A stretch of 64,000 nt of DNA from Ignavibacteria bacterium (GTDB taxonomy: Bacteria > Bacteroidota > Ignavibacteria > Tepidaquicellales > Tepidaquicellaceae): positions 124,001 through 188,000 of the forward strand of contig JAQTLX010000007.1 in assembly GCA_028714695.1 (NCBI GenBank). The letters run 5' to 3'. The position numbers were made by a program, and so were the translations under genes. Shown here one piece after another: positions 52,091 through 55,652 of this stretch (position 1 is its first letter; every line of letters begins with the position of its first letter). A model generated the notes under the pieces. It was not told where the DNA came from. It ran no database searches and worked only from the letters and a program-made list of their open reading frames with translations.

Positions 52091-53788
52091 ATGAAATATT
52101 CCAAATTATTACTTCTTGCAGCCGTAATGGTTGCAATATCAATATCCGGCTTCAAAGATGTTTATTCCCCGAAATATAAAATGGCAAATGACATTGTAAT
52201 CCGGAGAAACGATGGAGCGCTATATTTAAAAGGCATTATGAATTTTAAATTCAAGAATGACGTAACAAATGTTTCATCAAAGTCATTCAATATTGCAAAA
52301 CTGGATAATTTATTATCCAAATATACAGTTAACAAACTGGAACAAAGGCATCCTTTAAAACAAAATATTTCCAAAAGGATGAAAGGCGATGACCAGTTGG
52401 CAAGAATCTATTCGGTATATTATTCTGCCGACAGAGACCCGTCGGAATTAGCGGAAGAAATATTCAATCAAAACAAAGAACTGCTCGACTGGGCGGAACC
52501 TGATTACGTATATACTGCCGACTATATGCCGAATGATCCTCAGGTTGGAAGTCAATATCACATTTCGAAAATTGCGGCTTATACTGCATGGGACGTAACG
52601 CAGGGCGATACAAACGTTGTAATCGGAATGGTTGATACGGGAAGCGACCTTGACCATCCCGACCTTGCGGCAAACATAAAATTTAATTATGCCGAGAATC
52701 CTACTAACGGCATCGATGACGACAACAACGGATATGTTGATGACTATAGAGGCTGGGATTTTGCGGGAGCGGATTATCATGCATTATCGGAGGACAACAA
52801 TCCGAACATTACGACTTCTTACTGTGATCACGGTTCGCATACTTCTGGATGCGCTTCCGAGGTAACGAACAACGGTGTAGCAGGTTCAGGAATCGGATTT
52901 AAATGCAAACTTCTTATATCAAAACACGGGGCTGACAACGATAATACAGGCAGCGGTTCATCGTATTTATACAGAACAGACGCGGGCATAGTTTATTTAT
53001 ACCAGAACGGCGTAAAAGTTATAAATTGCAGTTTCGGAGGCACTACATCATCGGGGTATACTCAATTAGCAATAGCGAATGCGTGGGATGCCGGTGTTGT
53101 AATATGCGCGTCTGCAGGAAATGACGGTTCGAATGTTCCGCGGTATCCCGCATCATATTCGAATGTAGTTTCCGTAGCATCCACAGATAATTCTGATCAT
53201 AAATCGTGGTTCTCGAATTATCATTCGACGGTCGACGTTTGCGCTCCGGGTTCAAGCATATACAGTACTTTATGGAACAATACATATGCCACCTGGGACG
53301 GAACTTCCATGTCGTCTCCGATTTGCGCGGGTACGGTTGCTTTGATATTTTCGAAGTATCCGGCATATACGCCTGCTCAGGTCACGACAAGGCTGTTTAA
53401 CGGATGCGATGATATATCTGCGCTCAATCCCGGATATGCAGGCTTGCTCGGCCATGGAAGAATTAACGCCTATAAATCCGTGCAGGTTTTATCATCAATT
53501 AATCCGAACGGAAATGACGTTCCAAAGAGTTTCGCACTCGGTCAGAACTATCCGAATCCTTTCAATCCGGTGACAAAAATTAATTTCTCCGTACCGAAAG
53601 CATCAAACGTAAAATTAACGGTTTATGACATGACGGGAAAAGAAGTTGAAACAATCGTGAATGAATCAAAGGCAGCGGGAAATTACACTGCTAATTTCAA
53701 CGCGATGGTTTTATCGAGCGGCGCGTATTTCTATAAACTCACCGCAGGCAGTTATTCGGATGTAAAGAAAATGTTATTAATAAAATAA
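52091..53788 (+). CDS. Secreted subtilisin-like (S8) serine peptidase with T9SS sorting domain
   Basis: 565 residues. Signal/anchor region at 1-20 (LLLLAAVMVAISISGF), an inhibitor-type propeptide (about 40-160), then the catalytic triad: Asp182 in GMVDTGSDLDHPD, His247 in CDHGSHTSG and Ser406 in GTSMSSPICAG; the oxyanion Asn is in CASAGNDGSN. The C-terminal about 80 residues are a T9SS sorting domain (LGQNYPNPFNPVTK, GKEVETIVN, GAYFYKLTAGSYSDVKKM). Extracellular protein breakdown is likely. Intact, with normal length. Confidence 0.93.
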   Translation: MKYSKLLLLAAVMVAISISGFKDVYSPKYKMANDIVIRRNDGALYLKGIMNFKFKNDVTNVSSKSFNIAKLDNLLSKYTVNKLEQRHPLKQNISKRMKGDDQLARIYSVYYSADRDPSELAEEIFNQNKELLDWAEPDYVYTADYMPNDPQVGSQYHISKIAAYTAWDVTQGDTNVVIGMVDTGSDLDHPDLAANIKFNYAENPTNGIDDDNNGYVDDYRGWDFAGADYHALSEDNNPNITTSYCDHGSHTSGCASEVTNNGVAGSGIGFKCKLLISKHGADNDNTGSGSSYLYRTDAGIVYLYQNGVKVINCSFGGTTSSGYTQLAIANAWDAGVVICASAGNDGSNVPRYPASYSNVVSVASTDNSDHKSWFSNYHSTVDVCAPGSSIYSTLWNNTYATWDGTSMSSPICAGTVALIFSKYPAYTPAQVTTRLFNGCDDISALNPGYAGLLGHGRINAYKSVQVLSSINPNGNDVPKSFALGQNYPNPFNPVTKINFSVPKASNVKLTVYDMTGKEVETIVNESKAAGNYTANFNAMVLSSGAYFYKLTAGSYSDVKKMLLIK

Positions 53789-53808
53789 GGATATTGTTTT
53801 ATTAGTAA

Positions 53809-53902
53809 CCCGCCTATCTTTTTGGCGGGATGGTATTAAAATAATTTTAAAAATATAATTGGTTTATAATCCCCGTTTGAAAAATCAGACGGGGATTTTT
53901 TA
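53809..53902. terminator. Two hairpins between the convergent subtilase and pentapeptide genes
   Basis: CCCGCC/GGCGGG at 53809-53829 and a terminator AATCCCCGT / ACGGGGATT with T tract at 53868-53902. The second can work in both directions and separates the convergent genes. Confidence 0.75.
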
Positions 53903-53918
53903 TTTCCGATACTCTTCC

Positions 53919-54785
53919 TTATATAACCGTGACTTTGGATAAATCGGCATCCATGCTTTTGAGCGCGGCAAAGGTCAGTTTATCCATCATCGCGCCGTCA
54001 AAGCAGATAGTTTTGATTGCACGGTAGTATTTATTGGTAAGGGCAAACGCCGGTATGAACGACACATTCTTAAGAGTCGCTTCTTTAAATGTTACATCGT
54101 TCAGCGCTGCTTTGTCAAATCTAACACCAATGAAGGTCAGTTCGTCCAGACAGATGCCCCGCATGTCGCAGTATTTGAAATCGACTCCGGCGAAAGTACA
54201 CTTCTCAAAGACAGTCCTTCTAAGGTCTGTCATGTTCATCTTTACGTCGATAAGTTTCACATCGGTGAATTTTGTTTCGGTTAAATCAAGTTTGCTGAAT
54301 TCGGTACGTACAAGAATCGTTTTATTAAAACTCGCACCCGCGAGGTCAAGGGTGGAGAAACTGCAGTCTGTCAGATTCGTTCCGTCAAAATTGGCTTCAT
54401 GCATATCGCTGCTTTTGAATGAACTGCCTGTCAGGTCAGCACGGCTGAAATCGGAGTTACGAAGCGCGCTTGCTGAAAATTTTCTGTTATGAGCGGTAAC
54501 GCCTGCAAAGTCGCTGCCCGGCAGGCTGCTTGCGGTAAAGTTTGTAAGTATCTGCCTCTCCAGCGAGCGTGAGAGATTCGCGACCTCCTGTATTGTCAGT
54601 TCAATGTTGCCGATACTATCGATTGTCATCTCAAATGCTGTTTCGTCATCCTTTCCTTCGGCTTTGAGTTCATTATACCTTTCCTGCAAATCGGAAAGCA
54701 AATCTTCCTTTAGTTCCGCCACACTTTTTACCCCGTCGTAAAGTGCGAATACGCCGTTTAAATAATTTATTAATTTCTCATTCAT
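53919..54785 (-). CDS. Permease-prefix-like domain fused to a pentapeptide-repeat beta-helix
   Basis: 288 residues. Residues 1-60 (NEKLINYLNGVFALYDGVKS, DLLSDLQERYNELKAEGKDD, AFEMTIDSIGNI) resemble the HAAS/permease-prefix domain usually found with PadR regulators. From about 95 to 265 the chain is a right-handed quadrilateral beta-helix of A(D/N)LxF-type steps: ALRNSDFSRADLTGSSF, MHEANFDGTNLTDCSF, LAGASF, MRGICL, EATLKNVSF. No membrane helix is seen, unlike the usual HAAS partners. The gene follows padR after 3 bases, so the pair is one operon. The PadR protein may control it, and the protein may sense or protect something; no function can be stated. Confidence 0.8.
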   Translation of the reverse strand: MNEKLINYLNGVFALYDGVKSVAELKEDLLSDLQERYNELKAEGKDDETAFEMTIDSIGNIELTIQEVANLSRSLERQILTNFTASSLPGSDFAGVTAHNRKFSASALRNSDFSRADLTGSSFKSSDMHEANFDGTNLTDCSFSTLDLAGASFNKTILVRTEFSKLDLTETKFTDVKLIDVKMNMTDLRRTVFEKCTFAGVDFKYCDMRGICLDELTFIGVRFDKAALNDVTFKEATLKNVSFIPAFALTNKYYRAIKTICFDGAMMDKLTFAALKSMDADLSKVTVI

Positions 54786-54788
54786 AAT

Positions 54789-55133
54789 TTATGGGTTTAT
54801 AATTAATTTATCCAGAATTTGCTTTGTAAAATCCCAGTTTTGTTCGTTTTCTTTGTACAACTTGCGGCCCCCGGCAGTAATGCGGTAATATTTCCGCCTG
54901 CCGCCAAATGTCTCGTCGCCCCAATAAGATGTAATATGACCGTCACTTTCGAGACGCTTTAGGCTTGAATACATTGTTGCCTCTTTCAATTCATAAAGTT
55001 GCTGTGTGCGCTCGTACACCAGTTTAGTAATTTCATAACCGTACTTATCGCCATTTATTAAAAGGTTAAGGATGATAGTATCGGTGTGTCCCCTCAGTAA
55101 ATCTGACGATAGTTTTTTATTAATATTTTTCAT
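54789..55133 (-). CDS. PadR family transcriptional regulator
   Basis: 114 residues, a winged helix typical of short PadR proteins: LLRGHTDTIILNLLINGDKYGYEI at the start, LKEATMYSSLKRLESDGHI as recognition helix with wing GDETFGGRRKYYRIT, and GGRKLYKENEQNWDF as dimer helix. PadR proteins usually repress the next genes and are released by a ligand. The promoter/operator in front is well defined (55150-55193). The downstream gene is the HAAS-pentapeptide fusion. Confidence 0.93.
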   Translation of the reverse strand: MKNINKKLSSDLLRGHTDTIILNLLINGDKYGYEITKLVYERTQQLYELKEATMYSSLKRLESDGHITSYWGDETFGGRRKYYRITAGGRKLYKENEQNWDFTKQILDKLIINP

Positions 55134-55149
55134 AATTATTTATTTATAA

Positions 55150-55193
55150 TGACAATCATAGTACAACATATACCATATTACTATGACTGTCAA
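55150..55193 (-). promoter_or_regulatory. padR promoter overlapped by a 14-bp inverted repeat operator
   Basis: Read on the minus strand, TTGACA (55188-55193) and TATGTT (55165-55170) are 17 bases apart, a sigma70-like promoter. The inverted repeat TGACAATCATAGTA (55150-55163) / TACTATGACTGTCA (55179-55192) agrees in 13 of 14 positions with 15 bases between. It covers the -35 box and part of the spacer and leader. Its place suggests autorepression by PadR. Confidence 0.7.
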
Positions 55194-55597
55194 GGTAATT
55201 TTTATTTGATTATTTTCAGCCGGGTAAGATGAAAAAACCCGCGATGCGAATATCGAAGAAAGACTATTAATATGCGGAGTGTGTGTTATGGCGGGCAGAT
55301 CGGAAGAAATTGAAAAATTAAGATGACGCCTGCCTAAACGGGTTCAAAGGATAAAGTTACTCTTATTCTACAAAGATCCCGCCGCTATGCGGCTAAAAAG
55401 ATTCTGTTATTCTTATTCTACAAAGATTCTATTATATCGCTCCTCCGGAACTTCGCTTAGGGGCGGGCTTCATTTGCCACAGATATGCTTCGACTCCCCG
55501 CAGTTATTCTTCATTCATCGCAGATATGCTTCGACTCGCCGCCGCAGCCTTTCGGCTTATGCGTCAGTTTGAACACTTGACGCCGTTGAGGAAATGC
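55194..55597. other. Gene-free stretch with short repeats
   Basis: No gene seen. TTATTCTACAAAGAT occurs twice (about 55363-55377 and 55413-55427) and CAGATATGCTTCGACTC twice (about 55481 and 55521). GTCAGTTTGAACACTTGACG near 55563 is a weak hairpin. Confidence 0.5.
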
Positions 55598-55620
55598 AAA
55601 AGGGGCTAAGCGCCCCTTTT
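55598..55620. terminator. Terminator of the sigma-mutS-scpB operon
   Basis: AAAAGGGGC (55598-55606), loop TAAGC, GCCCCTTTT (55612-55620). Read on the minus strand it ends in T4 about 33 bases after the scpB stop. It works in both directions. Confidence 0.75.
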
Positions 55621-55652
55621 TATATCGAATTTAATCTTCCTTATGTCCGGAT

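Follow-up and report, generated by a model that had tools for sequence, protein, structure and literature searches.

What would a PadR-family repressor respond to when the protein encoded directly behind it is built from pentapeptide repeats? We addressed this question at a gene pair on the minus strand of a 64,000-nucleotide stretch of Ignavibacteria bacterium DNA (contig JAQTLX010000007.1; this whole stretch is called the window below). In this pair, padR (54789..55133; 114 amino acids; winged-helix repressor; Pfam PadR, PF03551, 71.3 bits, cut-off 27) comes first and is separated by a gap of three bases from a gene (53919..54785) for a pentapeptide-repeat protein (PRP) of 288 amino acids, which joins a HAAS-like head to a pentapeptide-repeat beta-helix (the rod). 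Where a role is known for pentapeptide-repeat proteins, it is mainly the protection of a target, others having no assigned role, and the original prediction had raised the possibility that this one protects DNA gyrase from inhibitors as part of a drug-responsive unit. In the window's genome, PadR and the window PRP were each matched once (E ≤ 0.001). At window 52091-53788, the pair is adjoined by a gene for a subtilase with a secretion-system C-terminal sorting domain.

Palindromic sites in the padR promoter

The predicted padR promoter (TTGACA-N17-TATGTT, 55165..55193, minus strand) has its -35 element TTGACA at 55188-55193 and TATGTT at 55165-55170. A 14-bp inverted repeat that had been proposed as a single operator over this promoter is genuine, in that its arms pair at 13 of 14 positions and a pattern derived from them (up to three mismatches) found one site in the window and none in 100 shuffles. 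Its arms are, however, parts of two separate 19-bp palindromes whose centres lie 34 bp apart. A repeat finder run around the promoter reported no repeat, because the longest exact stretch is shorter than its 9-base seed. The first palindrome, putative operator 1 (55179..55197; TACCTTGACAGTCATAGTA in minus-strand letters), overlaps the -35 element and is kept in relatives; an interval of 53919-55193 clips this conserved site by four bases. The second and weaker palindrome, putative operator 2 (55145..55163), is centred 34 bp downstream of operator 1, around the expected transcription start.

A palindrome with the consensus TACCTTGACAGTCATAGTA lay over the -35 box in all 67 padR promoters that were aligned (the window and 66 homologous loci, counting the broken copy L032). 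These promoters, which are not independent because the sample is rich in Paenibacillus, contain 31 distinct 19-mers, and 66 of the 67 depart from the consensus at no more than three of the 19 positions. The predicted operator is thus borne out at the level of sequence, as would be expected of autoregulation by PadR. The downstream site of the window scored 15.6 bits, against 14.6 bits at the 99.9th percentile of shuffled promoters, and the window was alone among the 67 promoters in having its best second site at +34. The best second site was found at exactly -34 in 25 of the 67, and nine of these 25 exceeded the 95% level of shuffled promoters (3.8 bits), which is suggestive only of an upstream partial site in the promoters of relatives.

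On the minus strand, operator 1 of the window reads TACC-N11-AGTA, and the general type at padR-PRP loci is TACY-N11-RGTA. When the strict pattern TACNTTGACNGTCANNGTA was scanned in 23 genomes behind homologous loci, sites were found in 16 and none in seven (at least one of these seven, L010, gave none because its own site departs from the pattern), and the backwards control gave zero. Coordinate comparison placed 18 of the 19 distinct strict sites at padR-PRP loci, and this near confinement suggests that PadR is a regulator dedicated to its own operon. The nineteenth, in genome G513, falls within a gene that we take to be response-regulator-like and was judged to be a chance occurrence. The window's genome has two exact matches to a 14-letter pattern, its own site and one in another coding sequence; the latter lies inside a small membrane-protein frame, presumably fluoride-channel-like, and was likewise attributed to chance.

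Among described PadR-family operators, that of cdPadR1, TACT(N11-12)AGTA, has the half-site letters and spacing seen at padR-PRP loci, and cdPadR1 also has two sites in its own promoter (PMC5050560, in the part considered here). For that regulator, some 200 sites are predicted genome-wide, in contrast to the near confinement of the strict padR-PRP sites to their own operon. The LmrR operator is described in the same source as of the ATGT/ACAT type, unlike TACY-N11-RGTA.

The PadR protein

The tryptophan in the last helix of the window PadR aligns with the tryptophan of LmrR-like PDB chains, which we take to be LmrR itself, and a tryptophan is present among the last 18 residues of all 66 intact PadRs, that of the window included and the broken L032 left out. 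In LmrR, this last-helix tryptophan stacks drugs (PMC4534193). The LmrR-LmrCD system of Lactococcus is alike in its PadR-family autorepressor, its drug-stacking tryptophan and its ABC multidrug exporter, and LmrR operator DNA can bind more than one dimer, as the two palindromes of the window might; the part of that paper considered here mentions no pentapeptide partner.

The head and rod of the PRP

The head of the PRP (residues 1-77; 54555..54785, minus strand) has four predicted helices. Residues 21-67 matched the NCBIfam model perm_prefix_1, which we take to belong to HAAS, at 34.1 bits (cut-off 30), and this model matched all 30 sequences (E ≤ 0.001) of an alignment of the window with 29 chosen homologous loci (alignment A1). 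This result supports the predicted permease-prefix-like head joined to pentapeptide repeats in place of a membrane part. Among the Pfam hits of the window proteins at E ≤ 1 there was no HAAS or DUF1700 family, and all 30 sequences have G59-D/N60-I61 where HAAS has GxP, the GxP motif of the third helix being absent; we call the head HAAS-like, and not a strict member of HAAS.

The fusion is not new, as it is noted in one sentence in print: Ravi et al. 2024 name pentapeptide repeats among the possible fusion partners of HAAS, chiefly in Firmicutes (PMC11237479), and give AOH56696.1 as an example. The HAAS-PadR systems of that paper are alike in that a stand-alone PadR gene stands beside one whose product joins a helical head to a sensory or effector domain. 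They differ in having GxP where the present family has GxI, and the part of the paper considered here describes no exporter operon, XRE exchange or operators for this fusion. A search of the open-licence literature by titles and abstract openings, covering few subscription papers, did not find the exporter operon or XRE form of the PRP described below.

The rest of the protein (residues 78-288; 53922..54554, minus strand) ends in two C-terminal helices and matched the Pfam Pentapeptide family PF00805 at 84.5 bits (cut-off 20.2). A further Pfam match, to LD_SV2, was put down to a beta-helix look-alike. In an AlphaFold2 model (mean pLDDT 84.7), for which 30 sequences were aligned, residues 2-77 form four helices, the last of low confidence, followed by a beta-helix and two short C-terminal helices. 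The best Foldseek matches among solved structures were designed solenoids, HetL, MfpA, QnrB1 and AlbG (E 1.8e-10 and weaker), and since the query TM-scores were at most 0.50 among the 50 matches listed, this result backs the fold class only. The model thus supports a right-handed beta-helix of the pentapeptide type, a fold class that the PRP has in common with Qnr, MfpA and AlbG.

The PRP differs from those proteins by its extra head and in its scores, which are far under the cut-offs of the Qnr and MfpA models (Qnr, 46.5 bits against 240; MfpA, 32.3 against 360), and among the 30 plasmid records listed (of 1684), those for Qnr share 24-27% identity with it. The pI of the pentapeptide domain is 6.9 in the window and 8.3 at the family median, compared with 5.0 for QnrB19. 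Its net charge, a sequence measure and not a surface potential, for which QnrB19 (-6) is the single yardstick, has a mean of +2.3 and a range of -3 to +9 over 86 domains and is 0 in the window. These comparisons argue against the gyrase protection that had been envisaged.

The pair and a downstream exporter in other genomes

A scan with one genome per species yielded 93 relatives, of which 80 loci were kept (60-80% identity in the best segment); these are mostly from Bacillota, with some from Chloroflexota and Bacteroidota, one from Spirochaetes and one Ignavibacteriae record. The pair proved to be widely conserved, as predicted, with padR directly upstream of the PRP gene in 66 of the 80 loci (counting the broken L032). 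The 14 loci that had no PadR match comprise 13 in Bacteroidota and L079 (Paenibacillus), a damaged HAAS-type copy. Two distant versions of the PRP also follow a padR gene, at 35% identity in L085, from the same class, and at 32% on a Peribacillus plasmid. Several genomes carry two or three padR-PRP copies (L017, L018 and L039 in one Paenibacillus; L016 and L029; L019 and L034).

Besides an exporter, no conserved neighbour of the pair was conspicuous. A gene for a DrrA-like ABC ATPase (frame over 600 bases, same strand) directly follows the PRP gene in 44 of the 80 loci and lies within 2.6 kb in four more, for a total of 48; it is succeeded by an ABC-2 permease gene (over 600 bases) in 42 of the 44 direct cases and in all four of the near ones. 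Among the other 32 loci, four have an ATPase fragment only, one reaches the contig end and 27 have no ATPase. We name the exporter DrrA-like by likeness only, because the example from L005 scores below the cut-offs (drrA, 297.7 bits against 312.45; the Mtu_efflux model for its DrrB-like part, 72.9 against 146.9). The ATPases of ten loci that were compared, six of them XRE-type, are 82-89% identical to that of L005. The window has no exporter genes, and the best match to the DrrA-like ATPase in its genome reaches 37% identity. The presence of the exporter ATPase in 48 of 80 relatives supports the link of the PRP family to drugs that had been suggested.

ATPase fragments stand behind the PRP gene in L017, L027, L077 and L078, suggesting repeated loss of the exporter. 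A second PadR match occurs between the PRP gene and the exporter in L003 (6182-6864) and also in L033, L039 and L043. L003, L033 and L039 have, between the same two genes, members of a common small gene family that is possibly, by our assumption, a stand-alone DUF1048/HAAS-type protein.

The XRE-headed form

The 13 Bacteroidota loci in which no PadR match was found carry an XRE helix-turn-helix in place of the HAAS-like head; the same head was later found on the PRPs of L083, L084, L114 and L131. In the example L068, the XRE head matched Pfam HTH_3 at 56.7 bits, and a structural model (mean pLDDT 82.8) has helices at residues 3-57, a stretch at 64-101 with pLDDT below 50, and a beta-helix. Within other Bacteroidota or Ignavibacteriae records, the PadR/HAAS form is represented by the window, L013 and L063. 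Directly downstream, the 13 XRE loci have the exporter ATPase in six cases, a fragment in two and none in five; the complete exporter is present in six of the 13.

The linker behind the XRE head resembles the end of the HAAS-like head: among 16 XRE proteins (L114 left out), five or fewer of 500 shuffles reached the observed score in 14, and the remnant was indistinct in the two others, L083 (19 of 500) and L084 (425 of 500). This remnant makes the HAAS form the most likely ancestor of the XRE form. In a tree of the rods, a single clade of XRE forms was rejected at p-AU 2.5e-4 (16 of 86 rows; four changes with L114), in a test that was post hoc and on a tree whose bootstrap support had not settled; in a second tree, with the long rows removed, an equally post hoc test gave 6.3e-5 (13 of 80 rows; three changes). 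The second tree was without L083, L084, L085, L086, L114 and L131, and both were without L032, which has a broken frame. Between L068 and L075, the rods are 67% identical and the heads 76%, and each rod is nearer to a PadR-linked rod (79% and 75%, respectively). As the XRE forms do not make up one clade, heads and rods seem to have been recombined more than once.

The XRE form also has a putative operator of its own. Upstream of 14 aligned XRE-PRP genes (without L074, whose head was seen separately), there is a common imperfect element with the consensus GTTGTTAATAACAAC and with ACAACTATAAGT as a repeat, before a TAnCTTTG-type box that we take to be a Bacteroidota promoter. Exact ACAACNNNAANTAGNNNNNNNACAAC sites numbered 11, in 10 of the 12 genomes scanned, and all were upstream of XRE-PRP genes, ten at known loci and one at a new divergent paralogue, L114. 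With one mismatch allowed, the pattern gave 26 sites and its backwards control 38, and since it is then not specific, the evidence for this operator is limited to the 11 exact sites. Of the one-mismatch sites, at least two, that of L074 itself and that of the paralogue L131, are located at XRE-PRP genes, and the L067 genome had no site at all. L114, in the L081 genome (Taibaiella), is a very divergent XRE-pentapeptide paralogue in which the operator pattern is present and little rod sequence is left.

Proposed function and alternatives

The XRE-fused form and the exporter are the most informative on function, and neither is visible from the window alone. The reading that we favor, with a probability of about 0.5, is that the pair came by horizontal transfer from an exporter operon and makes up a self-contained transcription switch, in which the rod would signal through the head to PadR. 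By binding the two palindromes that cover the promoter, PadR dimers would shut off their own operon, as the positions of the sites and the analogy to LmrR and cdPadR1 suggest, and the HAAS-like head would couple the rod to PadR. A signal received by the rod, in the simplest case a toxic compound or the target of one, would make the head loosen PadR, and the operon would be turned on. The output of the switch in many relatives would include the DrrA/DrrB-like ABC exporter, and in some Bacteroidota this rod, fused to an XRE head, would act alone. As the switch in the window is without an exporter, its output there would be the PRP itself.

The downstream exporter ATPase and the exchange for an XRE head indicate that the PRP probably serves as the signalling arm in a switch that regulates itself and an exporter. 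Because the rod is joined to DNA binding in two ways, in trans through HAAS/PadR and in cis through XRE, we infer that it feeds a signal to transcription, and the exporter downstream suggests that this signal is a toxic compound. We propose tentatively, at somewhat short of even odds, that pentapeptide rods serve as receiving domains of transcription factors, in trans via a HAAS-like head to PadR or in cis on XRE, with several exchanges and the same exporter. Points that stand against a switch are the missing exporter in the window, GxI for GxP in 30 of 30 sequences, the lack of a HAAS-type family among the Pfam hits, the loss of specificity of the XRE-operator pattern at one mismatch and the two unclear XRE linkers. 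Since 27 of the 80 loci (5 of the 13 XRE loci) have no nearby exporter, the PRP may also have a protective role of its own.

The LmrR-type tryptophan kept in PadR means that PadR itself could be the sensor, and rod and PadR may both sense. If sensing were left to PadR, which would bind flat aromatic drugs on its paired tryptophans as LmrR does, the PRP would be a target-protection effector beside an exporter. This less probable account is favored by the tryptophan, which aligns with that of the LmrR-like chains and has a counterpart in every intact PadR, and by the 22 of the 67 HAAS-type loci (counting the damaged L032 and L079) that have the two genes with no exporter nearby. It also has a counterpart in microcin B17 immunity, where the pentapeptide protein McbG, which protects gyrase, is combined with the ABC exporter McbEF (PMC10926693), although PadR, HAAS and XRE parts are unmentioned in the portion of that source considered here; the window differs from such a module in that the ABC exporter genes are absent, whereas 48 of 80 relatives have the ATPase. 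The account leaves unexplained why, in Bacteroidota loci that lack PadR, the same PRP is joined to a DNA-binding head, and the Qnr and MfpA scores far under their cut-offs and the near-neutral to basic charge of the domain also speak against a protector of that kind. The same scores and charges (a mean of +2.3 over 86 domains and 0 in the window, against -6) make it very improbable that the PRP is a DNA-mimic regulator of gyrase, like Qnr or MfpA, whose dose PadR merely adjusts, which the MfpA, QnrB1 and AlbG structures among the 50 Foldseek matches listed would favor as to fold class only.

It is also doubtful that the pair in the window is a non-functional remnant of an exporter operon, carried as a passenger since its transfer. 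In favor of this are the missing exporter, the imperfect repeats in the inserted segment, and the damaged copies (L032 and L079) and exporter fragments (L017, L027, L077 and L078) elsewhere; against it, both frames of the pair are intact, its PRP is gap-free in conserved columns, and it has an intact promoter and operator 1 together with a second full operator. The family, with its swapped head (PadR/HAAS or XRE), its kept rod and its often kept drug-pump-like exporter, is a ready natural experiment on the signal that the rod receives and on the communication between HAAS-like heads and PadR, and the conserved operators make both the PadR and the XRE versions directly testable.

Origin of the window copy

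Alignment of the flanks showed that a segment of the window (53789..55648, no strand) is missing in G494, a genome of the same genus, in which the flanking peptidase and enoyl-CoA hydratase genes are 153 bp apart, compared with 1860 bp in the window. The other genome of the genus, G465, has a different neighbour at that place. At E ≤ 1e-30, matches among 197 genomes of the class were limited to the window's genome and one relative at 35% identity, and four of 395 genomes of the phylum matched, two of them by the XRE form. Given the empty site in G494 and this sparse distribution, gain of the window pair by horizontal transfer is the simpler reading, the rival being a deletion in G494.

No particular vehicle of transfer is supported by the matches to mobile elements, which were one plasmid relative at 32% identity (E ≤ 1e-20) and, in a phage record that lacks annotation, a partial match, also at 32% (E ≤ 1e-10). 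At E ≤ 1e-3, plasmid records numbered 1684; in none did the best place reach 60% identity, and Qnr accounts for most of the 30 listed. The segment missing from G494 contains, in its non-coding part at window 55341-55542, two imperfect direct-repeat pairs, one of 37 nt (81%) and one of 34 nt (85%).
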